A DNA stretch of 23,690 nt, taken from the IMG/VR virus record IMGVR_UViG_3300042988_002313, positions 1 to 23,690 of that record; one strand, written 5' to 3'. Source of the stretch: a virus. The notes under the pieces were generated by a model. That model did not search any database. It was not told where the DNA came from and saw only the letters and a program-made list of their open reading frames with translations. Shown piece after piece: positions 12,199-20,048 of this stretch (positions within the stretch are counted from its first letter, which is position 1; each line of letters starts with the position of its first letter). The position numbers and the translations under genes were made by a program.

Positions 12199-12206
12199 CC
12201 ACTTTT

Positions 12207-12244
12207 ACCCGGTTAGTACTCACTGCCGGGTTCCCTTCCTTTTG
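12207..12244 (+). terminator. Rho-independent terminator-like hairpin ending the late region
   Basis: ACCCGG (12207-12212) pairs with CCGGGT (12226-12231) around a 13-base loop, followed by a pyrimidine run TTCCCTTCCTTTTG. It begins 8 bases after the holin candidate's stop and separates the late genes from the early region. Confidence 0.6.
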
Positions 12245-12275
12245 TCAATCTTCCCTTAATAGTAGGTATACCCCT

Positions 12276-12312
12276 TATAATAATATTATACTTATACTAT
12301 AATAATATTATA
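12276..12312. repeat. Two perfect copies of TATAATAATATTATA, 7 bases apart
   Basis: Identical 15-base units at 12276-12290 and 12298-12312, spaced so that they recur every 22 bp (two DNA turns). Each contains the palindrome ATAATATTAT. This is the arrangement expected of a tandem protein-binding site on one face of the helix. It could also be simple AT-rich low complexity. Confidence 0.6.
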
Positions 12313-12422
12313 ATACCATAGAGCTATAAAGCGGGAAAACTTATTTATCTTTAAAAATTTTACTTTTAATAATAGAAAAAATTTTTAATATTTTATTTAA
12401 TGGTGGATATTATGGAGCGAAA

Positions 12423-12527
12423 ATGTACTTGAACCTTTTAATTAATTATTTTATAGTTGTAGCGATAATTGTTTTCAATCCATATTATATGGGTTTATCC
12501 AATATTGATCATGGGTTGACTTTTTAA
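12423..12527 (+). CDS. Possible 34-residue hydrophobic peptide
   Basis: ATG at 12423 is preceded by GGAG at 12414-12417 (5-base spacing). The peptide is a single hydrophobic helix (LINYFIVVAIIVF) with a short polar end. Its stop (TAA 12525-12527) overlaps the -35 region of the early promoter. Good start signals and composition argue for translation, but AT-rich DNA readily yields such frames, so it is tentative. Confidence 0.35.
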   Translation: MYLNLLINYFIVVAIIVFNPYYMGLSNIDHGLTF

Positions 12528-12544
12528 AAAAATTATAGTATATT
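12516..12544 (+). promoter_or_regulatory. Sigma70-like early promoter P1
   Basis: TTGACT (12516-12521) and TATATT (12539-12544) with a 17-base spacer, close to consensus. It would start transcription near 12551, giving a ~40-base leader before the first early gene at 12591. A TATTAT overlapping at 12541 is a weaker alternative -10. Confidence 0.72.
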
Positions 12545-12561
12545 ATAAATAGATACACCAC

Positions 12562-12584
12562 ATCAACCAAACTTGACACTGGAG
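12562..12584 (+). repeat. Shared leader element, copy 1 (degenerate)
   Basis: ATCAACCAAACTTGACAC followed by TGGAG. It matches the leader copy at 14467-14489 at 21 of 23 positions and lies the same way before a start codon. The last bases are the Shine-Dalgarno of the gene at 12591. TTGAC (12573-12577) and GTCAA (12584-12588) form a short inverted repeat with the GGA of the ribosome site in its loop. Confidence 0.65.
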
Positions 12585-12590
12585 TCAAAT

Positions 12591-12788
12591 ATGTTTATCA
12601 AACACATCACCACCAATAACGCTGTAATTTGTAGTGATCCAGATATTACCGGAGTAAACTGCGGACGTAAGGTTGCGAATGCTTTCACTGATTGTGTTAT
12701 TTGCACTAAGTGGAATGGAGGGTGTAAAGCTCAGAAGGAAGTTACAATTGAAGTTGTAGTTTCCGAAATAAATAAAAATAATTCTTGA
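12591..12788 (+). CDS. Small Cys-rich early protein, 65 aa
   Basis: The ATG at 12591 has GGAG at 12581-12584 (6-base spacing); an in-frame TTG at 12573 lacks a site and lies within the repeated leader. The 65-residue product has five Cys (14, 24, 35, 38, 45) in a pattern C-x9-C-x10-C-x2-C-x6-C, suggesting metal binding. I do not recognise the family. The last 8 residues (SEINKNNS) are encoded by the 85-bp repeat and are identical to the end of the protein encoded up to 14425. First gene behind promoter P1, hence likely among the earliest expressed. Confidence 0.68.
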   Translation: MFIKHITTNNAVICSDPDITGVNCGRKVANAFTDCVICTKWNGGCKAQKEVTIEVVVSEINKNNS

Positions 12789-12844
12789 TTATCTTCAACT
12801 GACAGTAGTATAATTTAAGTATAAAGTAAATCAACCAAACCTGA
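12760..12844 (+). repeat. 85-bp perfect direct repeat, copy A (gene end + promoter + leader)
   Basis: Identical, base for base as I read it, to 14397-14481 (offset 1637). It contains the final codons and stop of the upstream gene, a complete -35/-10 promoter and the first 15 bases of the leader. After 12844, copy A carries 16 extra bases (TCAACCAAATCTTTAA, a near-duplicate of the leader's start) before CACGGGAG resumes the match. Confidence 0.9.
12785..12814 (+). promoter_or_regulatory. Early promoter P2 (inside repeat copy A)
   Basis: TTGATT (12785-12790) and TATAAT (12809-12814), 18-base spacer. The -35 overlaps the stop codon TGA (12786-12788) of the preceding gene. Transcription would start near 12821 and give a ~55-base leader to the DUF932-type gene at 12876. 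Confidence 0.65.
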
Positions 12845-12875
12845 TCAACCAAATCTTTAACACGGGAGAAGTATC

Positions 12876-13652
12876 ATGGCAAACTTAACTCAAAAGTACA
12901 CCAATCCTTTCGCTGACGTAGAAATCAGCCCTGTTCAAATCGGGGGGCAGGACATTAGTAGTAAAATAGCTGTGCGGGTAAAAGATGATGACGGCAATTG
13001 GAGTATCACTCCAGCTATTCTTTCCAGCGACTACAAGTTGATTCAAAATAGCATAGCAAAAGATGTATCTGCGGATATTATGAGCCGTAGTGGATTACAG
13101 TGGTCAGAATTGAAAACTTTATGGGATGGTAAGAAGTTCTGCCAGTACCATATCACTAATGATCCGATTGTTGAGATTAATGGTGGTAATGAATCCAGCC
13201 ATCCTATAAAGGTTGGTTTAATGGTTCGCAACTCTTATGATGGTTCAGGGGTATTCGGTTTGGAGGTTTTTGCTTGTAATGTAGTTTGTGCCAATCAGTA
13301 TCATGATCGCAATAGGTTCGGGTATTTCGCTATCAGACACGATAATATGAAAGAATTTGAGCTTCAGGATGCACTGCAAAATCTATCTACCGGGGTGCAG
13401 AACGTAATTGCAGCAGCTCCTATTTTTAACCGAATGAGAGAAACTCCACTCACGGTTGAGCACCTCATTGAAACTAAAAAGAAAACCACCATACCAAAAA
13501 GTATGTGGTGTGACGTGATAGAGCAATTGGCCTTGGAATCCCGTACGGTATTCGGGTTGTACCAAGCCCTGACATTTGTCGCTTCTCACAATGTTCAGGG
13601 TTTCAATGCAATCGGAGTTGGTGAAAGCATCAGCAAAGTGCTACTGAAATAA
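12876..13652 (+). CDS. DUF932-type (phage/plasmid-like) protein
   Basis: A 258-residue protein with GGGAG 7 bases upstream of the ATG. It resembles the DUF932 family found in phages and plasmids: the central KVGLMVRNSYDGSGVFGLEV, then FACNVVCANQYHDRNRFGYF and AIRHDNM, corresponds to the family's 'RVVCaN' core. It is shorter than many members (usually ~300 or more). The biochemical function of the family is not established to my knowledge. It has its own promoter (P2), is followed by a hairpin, and may therefore be a single-gene transcript. Confidence 0.72.
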   Translation: MANLTQKYTNPFADVEISPVQIGGQDISSKIAVRVKDDDGNWSITPAILSSDYKLIQNSIAKDVSADIMSRSGLQWSELKTLWDGKKFCQYHITNDPIVEINGGNESSHPIKVGLMVRNSYDGSGVFGLEVFACNVVCANQYHDRNRFGYFAIRHDNMKEFELQDALQNLSTGVQNVIAAAPIFNRMRETPLTVEHLIETKKKTTIPKSMWCDVIEQLALESRTVFGLYQALTFVASHNVQGFNAIGVGESISKVLLK

Positions 13653-13665
13653 GAAAGCTGCCATT

Positions 13666-13690
13666 GCACAGGGCGCAAATTCTGTGCTTT
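13666..13690 (+). terminator. Hairpin, possible weak terminator
   Basis: GCACAG (13666-13671) and CTGTGC (13682-13687) form a perfect 6-bp stem with a 10-base loop, followed by TTTC and a T-rich stretch (ACTTATTTCTATTTC). It lies 13 bases after the DUF932-type gene's stop. Confidence 0.45.
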
Positions 13691-13727
13691 CACTTATTTC
13701 TATTTCTCTATTTCAAGGAATTTTCTC

Positions 13728-14162
13728 ATGTCACGCAATAGCATCAAATCTCTTTCTTTCTTTTCTGGTGGCAATGCTATCTTCACAGTGAGCAATCCTT
13801 CAGGAAAGCACTACACATACCGGATACGAAAACCGGAACCCCAATCACCATTTTTTATCCAGTTGCTAAAAGGGCCAGATAACACCAATGATTTTACTTA
13901 TTTAGGCGTGTATATGCCTAAAGAGAATAAGGTGCTGCTGACCAGAAATAGCAAGATGAATGAGAACTCCCTACCTGTCAAAGTATTGAAGTGGGCTCTC
14001 CAGTGCATAGCTGCTGGTGAAGGTATCCCGGAGGGGTACACTATTCAACATGAAGGTAAATGTTGTAAATGTGGGAGACCATTGACAGTTCCGGAGAGCA
14101 TCGAAAATGGTATTGGCCCCGAATGTGCTGGAACTCCAAAAAAAAACAGCAAAATAGTATAA
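13728..14162 (+). CDS. DUF6011-type zinc-binding protein
   Basis: A 144-residue protein. Its C-terminal segment KCCKCGRPLTVPESIENGIG-PECA (residues 111-134) is the typical DUF6011 signature, with Cys112/113, Cys115 and Cys133 as metal ligands. Residues 1-100 are a beta-rich domain (FFSGGNAIFTVSNPSGKHYT, YLGVYMPKENKVLLTR) that often accompanies it. ATG preceded by AAGGA. The last codons contain nine consecutive A (14138-14146). A -1 slip there would bypass the stop at 14160-14162 and enter the frame ending at 14425, giving a ~232-residue product. Confidence 0.8.
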   Translation: MSRNSIKSLSFFSGGNAIFTVSNPSGKHYTYRIRKPEPQSPFFIQLLKGPDNTNDFTYLGVYMPKENKVLLTRNSKMNENSLPVKVLKWALQCIAAGEGIPEGYTIQHEGKCCKCGRPLTVPESIENGIGPECAGTPKKNSKIV

Positions 14163-14230
14163 TATCAGGTGATAATGGTGTCGATGAATTTCAATTTGAA
14201 CCTGAAGTGCGTGAAGCACTGGAGAAGTTA

Positions 14231-14425
14231 ATGATGAATTTAGAAACTTACGCAAAAAAATTTTCGCATTTGAGAGCTCTTCCTTTATTCTCAGGCAGAC
14301 CGATCCGGGAGACTCCAATTGATAATGATGACATTACCAATATTAAAATTGAGCTGGGAAGATGTGAGGATGTCTTGGTGTTTATTGACTCCTTAATTTC
14401 CGAAATAAATAAAAATAATTCTTGA
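14231..14425 (+). CDS. Small early protein or frameshift extension of the DUF6011 gene
   Basis: The frame is open from well upstream (through 14147) to the TGA at 14423-14425. If translated independently, the best start is ATG 14231, with GGAG at 14221-14224 and 6-base spacing (64 residues). The upstream in-frame text 14183-14230 (DEFQFEPEVREALEKL) looks like real protein but has no ATG/GTG with a ribosome site. That suggests fusion to the DUF6011 protein by -1 frameshift at the A9 run. The product is helical (MNLETYAKKFSHLRALPLF, RCEDVLVFIDSLI) and ends in SEINKNNS, encoded by repeat copy B. No family recognised. Confidence 0.55.
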   Translation: MMNLETYAKKFSHLRALPLFSGRPIRETPIDNDDITNIKIELGRCEDVLVFIDSLISEINKNNS

Positions 14426-14481
14426 TTATCTTCAACTGACAGTAGTATAATTTAAGTATAAAGTAAATCAACCAAACCTGA
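14397..14481 (+). repeat. 85-bp perfect direct repeat, copy B (gene end + promoter + leader)
   Basis: Identical to 12760-12844 throughout 85 bases. In both places the first part is read in the same codon phase, giving SEINKNNS-stop to two otherwise unrelated proteins, and the rest holds a promoter and leader. Beyond 14481 the leader continues directly into CACGGGAG without the 16-base insertion of copy A. Confidence 0.9.
14422..14451 (+). promoter_or_regulatory. Early promoter P3 (inside repeat copy B)
   Basis: TTGATT (14422-14427) and TATAAT (14446-14451), 18-base spacer, the same sequence as P2. The -35 overlaps the TGA of the preceding gene. It would drive the small gene at 14497 and probably the replication genes behind it, as no other clear promoter lies between here and the end of the window. 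Confidence 0.65.
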
Positions 14482-14489
14482 CACGGGAG
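14467..14489 (+). repeat. Shared leader element, copy 3 (uninterrupted)
   Basis: ATCAACCAAACCTGACAC followed by GGGAG, the reference form of the leader. Its end is the ribosome binding site of the gene at 14497 (7-base spacing). It is related to 12562-12584 (2 differences) and to the leader in copy A (12830-12868, split by a 16-base insertion). Confidence 0.7.
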
Positions 14490-14496
14490 ACTTAAA

Positions 14497-14646
14497 ATGA
14501 ACGCTACTACTAAAACAACCACTGATGAAGAAGCATTGATCAACCTTTTGAACGAATGTGATGATGAAGAAATGTTGATCTTAGATGTCAAGAATTATGC
14601 TTGGGTAAATGCTTCTGAATTCAAAATCAATAGCAGCAAGAACTAA
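14497..14646 (+). CDS. Small acidic early protein, 49 aa
   Basis: ATG at 14497 with GGGAG at 14485-14489; stop TAA at 14644-14646. The protein is acidic in the middle (DEEALINLLNECDDEEMLIL) with a Thr-rich start and polar end (KINSSKN). It stands first behind promoter P3 and is followed 12 bases later by the next gene, whose GGAG overlaps its end. Small acidic early proteins are often host-takeover or anti-defence factors, but nothing in this sequence identifies a function. Confidence 0.65.
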   Translation: MNATTKTTTDEEALINLLNECDDEEMLILDVKNYAWVNASEFKINSSKN

Positions 14647-16943: not shown

Positions 16944-17427
16944 TTTTCAAAATCTGGAAGGAGTATACACGGTAGATCCGGGGATGAACACAGCTATGGT
17001 GTACTGGGTAGATGGGATGAACTATCCTCCAGTGATTAAGACTTTTGGTTGTACTTCTAAAGCCAAAACAAGGGTGGAAAAAATTTCCGATTTATCTATG
17101 AAGTTCTCAAAACAACTGGACACTCATGTAATACCTTTGGAGAAGATCTATATTGAAGGAGTAGAATTTTGGGAACATAATCTCACTTCACGCACTGCAA
17201 CTGTTCGTGGGGACACTATATTGCTATCATATATAGTTGGAGCGTATATTGAGGTATGCCGCAGTAAAAGTGTTCCTTGTGAGATATTGGAAGCCAGAAT
17301 GTGGAAAGGTCAAATGGACAAGTCTGCGGTTAAGGCTCGTGTAGATAGAGTGTTCACTACCAACTTTGGGACATCTCATGCGTATGACGCTGTAGGCATA
17401 GGATTGTCTTTGATGGGGCTATTATGA
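16933..17427 (+). CDS. RuvC-like Holliday junction resolvase / RNase H-fold nuclease
   Basis: A 164-residue protein. Acidic residues of the RuvC fold are visible: D15 in TVDPGMNTAM, E75 in KIYIEGVEFW, and H149/D152 in SHAYDAVGIGLSL. WKGQMDK at 124-130 corresponds to the conserved 'W-K-G-x-x-x-K' of phage RuvC-like proteins. The enzyme would resolve branched DNA or trim intermediates before packaging. It overlaps the helicase end by 11 bases, with GGAGGAG just before the ATG. It also overlaps the glycosylase start as ATGA, so the three are likely coupled. Confidence 0.85.
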   Translation: MKNNFQNLEGVYTVDPGMNTAMVYWVDGMNYPPVIKTFGCTSKAKTRVEKISDLSMKFSKQLDTHVIPLEKIYIEGVEFWEHNLTSRTATVRGDTILLSYIVGAYIEVCRSKSVPCEILEARMWKGQMDKSAVKARVDRVFTTNFGTSHAYDAVGIGLSLMGLL

Positions 17428-19094: not shown

Positions 19095-20048
19095 ATGGCA
19101 GTGATAATGAATAAAAAGCCCGCAGCCCCTGCACCAGCTAAACCAATACCACGGGAAACGGCACCACGGGCGGTTGCCCCACGTACCATCGCAACTCCGG
19201 GGAACGGATTGAATGCGTTGACTCTTCCAAAAGAGCCCACAAGTACCACTGGAGGTATTGAAACCACTAGCTGGCTAATTTATGGAAAAAAACGTATTGG
19301 CAAGTCAAGTTTGGCTGCGCAATTTCCCGGAGCTCTGGTGTTTGCGTTTGAGGCTGCCAGTAATAGGGTAAAAGCTATGCGTGTGGTGTGCGATAGTTGG
19401 GATAAATTCCTTGGGTATATTGCATTGATCAAGAAAACTCCCAATCATGGCTATAAAGTGGCAGTGATTGATACTGGGTTTGAGGCATACGGACGTTGTA
19501 AAGAATATGTATGCCGTAAAAATGGGGTGGAGTATACCAGTGACGCAAAGGATCACGGAGGTATTTGGGACAAAGTATCAACCGAATTCAGGAAAGCTCA
19601 AATTGAGCTCCAATCATTAGGGCTTCAATTGGTAGTAGTATGTCATGAACAATTGGTGGAGCAGGAAACGAGAGCGGGACAGAAGTTTGATATGGTTGCT
19701 CCAAAATTGAGCAAACAAGCTGATGACTACTATCGTGCCGCAATCGAAAATGTGATCTATTATCATCATAGAGATCGGCAGCACTGGATCACTCTACGGG
19801 GTTCTGACTATGTGTTTGCAGGAGTAGTTGGGGATGAGGATGACCCAGTGTTTATGACTCCGGAGGGGGAGAAAGTGTATGCGGTTTATGCTGGAACCAG
19901 CCCACAGGAAGCATTCACCAATCTTCAATTAGCATTTAGTTGTGAACAAAATGAAACCAATTCGGACGAAACATTGAAATATGAAGAGTCTGAAATGGTC
20001 AAATCAATGCGTAAAAAAGCCATTATGGCTGCGAAAAATAAAAAATAA
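19095..20048 (+). CDS. Sak4-like RecA-fold ATPase (single-strand annealing / recombination)
   Basis: A 317-residue protein with GGGAGG before the ATG. Residues ~1-50 are an Ala/Pro/Lys-rich linker (KKPAAPAPAKPIPRETAPRA). Then follow Walker A GKKRIGKSS (64-72) and Walker B KVAVIDTG (D126). LVVVCHEQ at ~184-191 is the sensor strand. The core matches phage AAA_24/Sak4-type recombination ATPases, which act with the phage SSB. The C-terminus is basic (MRKKAIMAAKNKK). The gene lies between a Cas4-like nuclease and the SSB-like gene, supporting a recombination role. Confidence 0.84.
   Translation: MAVIMNKKPAAPAPAKPIPRETAPRAVAPRTIATPGNGLNALTLPKEPTSTTGGIETTSWLIYGKKRIGKSSLAAQFPGALVFAFEAASNRVKAMRVVCDSWDKFLGYIALIKKTPNHGYKVAVIDTGFEAYGRCKEYVCRKNGVEYTSDAKDHGGIWDKVSTEFRKAQIELQSLGLQLVVVCHEQLVEQETRAGQKFDMVAPKLSKQADDYYRAAIENVIYYHHRDRQHWITLRGSDYVFAGVVGDEDDPVFMTPEGEKVYAVYAGTSPQEAFTNLQLAFSCEQNETNSDETLKYEESEMVKSMRKKAIMAAKNKK

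Follow-up and report, generated by a model that had tools for sequence, protein, structure and literature searches.

A repeated cassette with a predicted early promoter and leader in a phage genome record

In the early region of a phage, three unrelated genes begin behind what appears to be the same short leader, and two of these leaders start within an 85-bp piece of DNA that is identical at both places. Does this point to a common regulator or RNA partner, or did the phage copy an expression signal within its own genome?

Layout of the early region

The window, i.e., the whole stretch of DNA analysed, is the complete virus record IMGVR_UViG_3300042988_002313 (23,690 bases). The record has no completeness estimate and is probably a fragment. 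It includes a tail module with Baseplate J and a gene for an M15-type peptidase. A 360-bp AT-rich intergenic stretch, across which the strand is unchanged, separates the peptidase gene from an early/replication module. The module encodes, in order, ORF_A, a DUF932 protein, a DUF6011 protein, ORF_B, three small ORFs, an SNF2 helicase, a short protein, a uracil-DNA glycosylase, a PD-(D/E)XK exonuclease, a Sak4-like annealing protein, an acidic protein in the place of the single-strand-binding protein, and DNA polymerase A. Behind the last late gene (12206-12345), a GC stem (CCCGG/CCGGG) is followed by a T/C-rich tail, and AT-rich repeats of TATAATAATATTATA lie between this tail and the first predicted promoter. 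The features discussed below are as follows.

12516..12544, plus strand: P1, predicted sigma70-type promoter TTGACT-17-TATATT (consensus scan), 17 nt 5' of the leader
12562..12584, plus strand: leader copy 1, ATCAACCAAACTTGACACTGGAG, with the Shine-Dalgarno GGAG at its end (exact motif match; pair score exceeds all shuffles)
12591..12788, plus strand: ORF_A, 65 aa, ATG at 12591, C-terminus ...SEINKNNS (ORF list)
12760..12844, plus strand: cassette copy A, with 8 codons and the stop of ORF_A, an A/T-rich upstream region, P2 and the leader start (exact repeat)
12785..12814, plus strand: P2, predicted promoter TTGATT-18-TATAAT (consensus scan)
12830..12868, plus strand: tandem leader of the DUF932 gene, made up of the cassette leader (12830-12843) and, behind it, an older diverged unit with GGGAG (12844-12868) (sequence and alignment)
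12876..13652, plus strand: DUF932 protein gene, putatively served by P2 (Pfam PF06067, 1.7e-13; syntenic DUF932 in the relative L022)
13728..14162, plus strand: DUF6011 protein gene, flanked by the two cassettes (PF19474, 3.6e-14; phrog_20259, 3.1e-32)
14231..14425, plus strand: ORF_B, C-terminus ...SEINKNNS (ORF list)
14397..14481, plus strand: cassette copy C, with 8 codons and the stop of ORF_B, an A/T-rich upstream region, P3 and the leader start (exact repeat)
14422..14451, plus strand: P3, predicted promoter TTGATT-18-TATAAT (consensus scan)
14467..14489, plus strand: leader copy 3, ATCAACCAAACCTGACACGGGAG (exact motif match)
14497..14646, plus strand: 49-aa ORF, putatively served by P3 (ORF list; no PHROG or Pfam family match)

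ORF_A has no PHROG or Pfam match and no convincing match in phages. ORF_B likely starts at ATG 14231, behind GGAGAAG; alternatively, it extends the DUF6011 gene by a frameshift. Nine consecutive A directly precede the stop of the DUF6011 gene (14138-14162), and within 14069-14425 protein-like sequence in the -1 frame leads into ORF_B before its first good ATG (14231). The nine-A run and the -1 frame of ORF_B possibly reflect programmed -1 slippage or a homopolymer error.

The cassette, the leader and the probable direction of copying

The initial annotation described an 85-bp perfect repeat, took it to suggest recent duplication or gene conversion, and noted that the two upstream genes end alike. 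The repeat is real: 12760-12844 and 14397-14481 are identical over 85 bp (88 bp if one mismatch is allowed). No other exact repeat in the window is as long, and 100 first-order Markov sequences of the same composition gave none above 18 bp. Both copies have the contents described, namely TCCGAAATAAATAAAAATAATTCTTGA (read in frame in each as SEINKNNS and a stop), TTGATT-18-TATAAT, and the leader as far as CCTGA. The stop TGA overlaps the -35, and the DNA 5' of the -35 is nearly pure A/T. Recent duplication or gene conversion is well supported: copies A and C are also identical in the -35/-10 spacer and at wobble positions, and among the phage's own genes are those for a Sak4-like annealing protein and an exonuclease. 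Misassembly may have affected the repeat, but L022 has the genes in the same order as the window (small ORF - DUF932 - helicase). If transcription starts 7 nt past the -10, the cassette would cover about -61 to +24. Such a span is close to the footprint of RNA polymerase plus an upstream element. Because the upstream region of the promoter overlaps the 3' end of the preceding gene, the upstream ORF would gain the SEINKNNS tail together with the promoter. The tail therefore appears to be a by-product of copying and not a common protein function.

The leader ATCAACCAAACYTGACACKGGAG is also present behind the first promoter (12562), as annotated, and its occurrence there is beyond chance. A 23-nt form with two ambiguity positions, ATCAACCAAAC(C/T)TGACAC(G/T)GGAG, matches exactly at 12562 and 14467, and an ungapped scan of the window found nothing else under 6 mismatches; such a scan cannot show copy A, which is split by a 16-nt insertion. 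When the 40-nt stretches 5' of 30 starts were compared (435 pairs), the P1-P3 leader pair scored 36, while 300 shuffles gave a best score of 33 and a 95th percentile of 28. Between P1 and P3, 21/23 leader bases are kept, whereas the -35 spacer and the upstream DNA have diverged. All three leaders end 6-7 nt 5' of an ATG, in front of unrelated genes, and the element begins 15-17 nt past each -10.

P1 had been called unrelated-looking, a description that does not stand. Allowing gaps, its similarity to P3 extends over the whole distance between the -10 and the start codon, and it reads as a diverged relative of P3 rather than an unrelated promoter. Three of the top five plus-strand promoter-like sites sit just 5' of the leaders. 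In the window as a whole, 40 promoter-like sites were counted versus 32.8 +/- 6.2 expected, no clear excess, with a consensus that is borrowed from enteric bacteria and may not fit the host of this phage. We infer three early transcripts with 5' ends at P1, P2 and P3.

The annotated 16-base near-duplication in copy A is likewise present. Relative to copy C, copy A carries a 16-nt insertion. We read the sequence there as ATCAACCAAACCTG with another, diverged unit, ATCAACCAAATCTTTAACACGGGAG, behind it, so that the DUF932 gene has a tandem pair of leaders. On sequence grounds, this is best read as the cassette of copy C joined onto a leader that the DUF932 gene already had. The second unit diverges more than P1 does from P3, so the simplest view is that the DUF932 gene had this leader originally. 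A single copying event from C to A would explain the exact repeat as well as the tandem leader, while copying from A to C would need an extra, separate tandem duplication.

Relatives and comparable systems

Neither megablast nor blastn found a nucleotide relative in the phage collection, and the DUF932 protein and the helicase, each used as a single query, recovered no kin. DNA polymerase and its alignments recovered L003, L022, L071 and L072. In two of these, the genes from helicase to polymerase stand in a matching order; they are distant kin, with polymerases that are 44% (L022) and 37% (L003) identical. MW202483, considered as a relative through its DUF6011 match, was rejected as an unrelated podovirus. 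The L022 contig (IMGVR_UViG_3300013101_000105 = QMNH01000001.1) is binned in a Candidatus Falkowbacteria MAG, which may indicate the host or a binning error.

The leader of the window is absent from both L022 and L003, which share the replication gene block, and its pattern had no match in the viral contigs. A relaxed pattern gave 42 single matches, approximately the number expected by chance, mostly at unrelated places and none in the kin of this phage. L022 has a repeated leader of its own. Its DUF932 gene is preceded by a small ORF, and a 46-nt leader stands at both starts, the two being 80% identical to each other. These are the positions of P1 and P2 in the window. The similarity between the leaders of the window and of L022 is not above that of shuffles, and the L022 leader pattern matches only in its own contig. 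This suggests that what persists before DUF932 is the position of a repeated leader and not its sequence.

In L022, moreover, two early control regions share an exact 40-nt inverted repeat (1283-1322 / 17277-17316) and are likely the operator arrays of two early units. GTATACCCC/CGCATG-type motifs flank this repeat. GTATACCCC also occurs in the window at about 12263, but as a shared signal it was discarded, being no commoner than chance. In L003, two control regions share a 49-nt repeat at 84% (2113-2161 / 19340-19388). Repeated ACGCATGA / TTGCGTTTT elements, oppositely oriented, lie next to it; together these form a candidate repressor operator system. The window, L022 and L003 each have their own duplicated control DNA. 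Duplicated control DNA is therefore usual here, and its sequence is genome-specific. Two other phage loci (L011 and L014) also have repeated leaders, of other sequence, and thus a repeated leader as such is ordinary.

Two known systems invite comparison. T4-like phages have promoter early stem-loops (PeSLs), described as mobile regulatory cassettes (Arbiol 2010, Comeau 2014, via PMC4503421). According to PMC4503421, these are small cassettes with an early promoter that recur in the genome and are linked to recombination between genes, and the exact repeat here likewise holds a predicted early promoter, TTGATT-18-TATAAT. Our cassette differs in that neither copy has a terminator-like site and no stem-loop was found (folding z 1.38), and in that it includes coding bases and a leader and has just two exact copies. 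The start-associated sequences (SAS/ESAS) of Cluster K mycobacteriophages (PMC3203893) are short repeated sequences just 5' of the start codons of unrelated genes, as are our three leaders, and the inverted-repeat consensus of ESAS varies between subclusters. However, GGGATAGGAGCCC is absent from the window even with up to 2 mismatches, there are no 17-bp inverted repeats and only three sites, and the leader follows a predicted promoter. The cassette is of the general kind of repeated early control cassettes of phages, and belongs to neither the PeSL nor the SAS family.

Possible function of the leader

Folding of the three leaders is no better than that of shuffles (z 0.36, 0.38 and 0.60). 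What they share is ACAC(G/T)GGAG, in 3/3 leaders, with CA/AC steps immediately 5' of the Shine-Dalgarno. Few upstream regions of the window are as CA-rich as these three taken jointly (permutation p 0.0015, by a post hoc metric and with copies A and C not independent). The two repeated leaders of L022 are likewise CA-rich (permutation p 0.011, by a metric picked after seeing the sequence). In Salmonella, translation is raised by ACA motifs located 5' of the Shine-Dalgarno (PMC3879156), a rule from enteric bacteria that may not hold in the host of this phage. The leaders resemble such enhancers, having an unstructured CA-rich stretch with ACA directly 5' of the Shine-Dalgarno, and may enhance translation likewise.

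We consider it probable that the cassette is a portable early promoter for host RNA polymerase with an unstructured, CA-rich, ribosome-loading leader, recently copied by phage recombination. An older duplication would have placed related promoter-leaders before ORF_A, the DUF932 gene and the 49-aa gene. Recombination encoded by the phage would then have recently copied the 85-bp piece, most simply from C to A. The joint would have fallen within the old leader of the DUF932 gene, leaving the tandem leader, and the gene upstream of the copied promoter would have acquired a new SEINKNNS tail. The A/T-rich upstream region, the promoter and the short leader would act as one early module, in which the CA-rich leader loads ribosomes just 5' of the Shine-Dalgarno. 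Against this, the shared leader could reflect simple common descent without function.

The main rival, which we regard as unlikely, is that the leader is a DNA operator, with ATCAACCAAAC(C/T)TGA at about +10 to +24 as the binding site of a repressor or activator of the phage that jointly controls the three units. The start of the element 15-17 nt past each -10 and a weak dyad (TCA...TGA) would fit such a site, as would the repeated regulatory DNA that L022 and L003 have at their own early control regions, and the subcluster differences of ESAS in Cluster K indicate that such sites can vary between related phages (PMC3203893). However, P3 has no good dyad, the window has no copies outside the three leaders, no regulator gene was recognised among the scanned window proteins, and the motif runs into the Shine-Dalgarno, which better fits an RNA role. 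Passive duplication comes next and is also rather doubtful: the leaders would be alike only through copied promoter-leader pieces, with no function beyond holding the Shine-Dalgarno. While the lack of structure, the absence of the sequence from kin and the other repeated leaders in L011 and L014 agree with this reading, it sits poorly with the retention of 21 of the 23 bases between P1 and P3 amid diverged surroundings, and with a repeated leader at the same two gene positions in L022.

The initial annotation suggested a common regulator or RNA partner from the conservation of the leader. Copying alone can explain this conservation within one genome. Neither a common regulator nor a dedicated RNA or protein partner finds support: the leader is unstructured, has no Rfam family match, is absent from the searched viral and phage records and is replaced in L022. 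It seems highly improbable that the phage or its host has an RNA-binding protein or small RNA dedicated to recognising the leader RNA, even though the three mRNAs would share an accessible CA-rich stretch adjoining the Shine-Dalgarno, the type of site used by GcvB-like small RNAs (PMC3879156). A lineage-specific start-site code, in which each lineage has its own leader kept uniform across early genes by recombination, strikes us as improbable. If true, a co-evolving phage factor would read the leader, and early mRNAs would be translated or repressed as a set.

Overall, an expression signal seems to have been duplicated within the genome in an ordinary way, which is no evidence for a new regulator, and the copied cassette alone reveals no new mechanism. 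It offers a clear view of how a phage duplicates an entire promoter-plus-leader unit inside its genome, joint included. Together with L022, where a repeated leader of another sequence seems to occupy the same place before DUF932, it points to a possible concerted evolution of early control signals.
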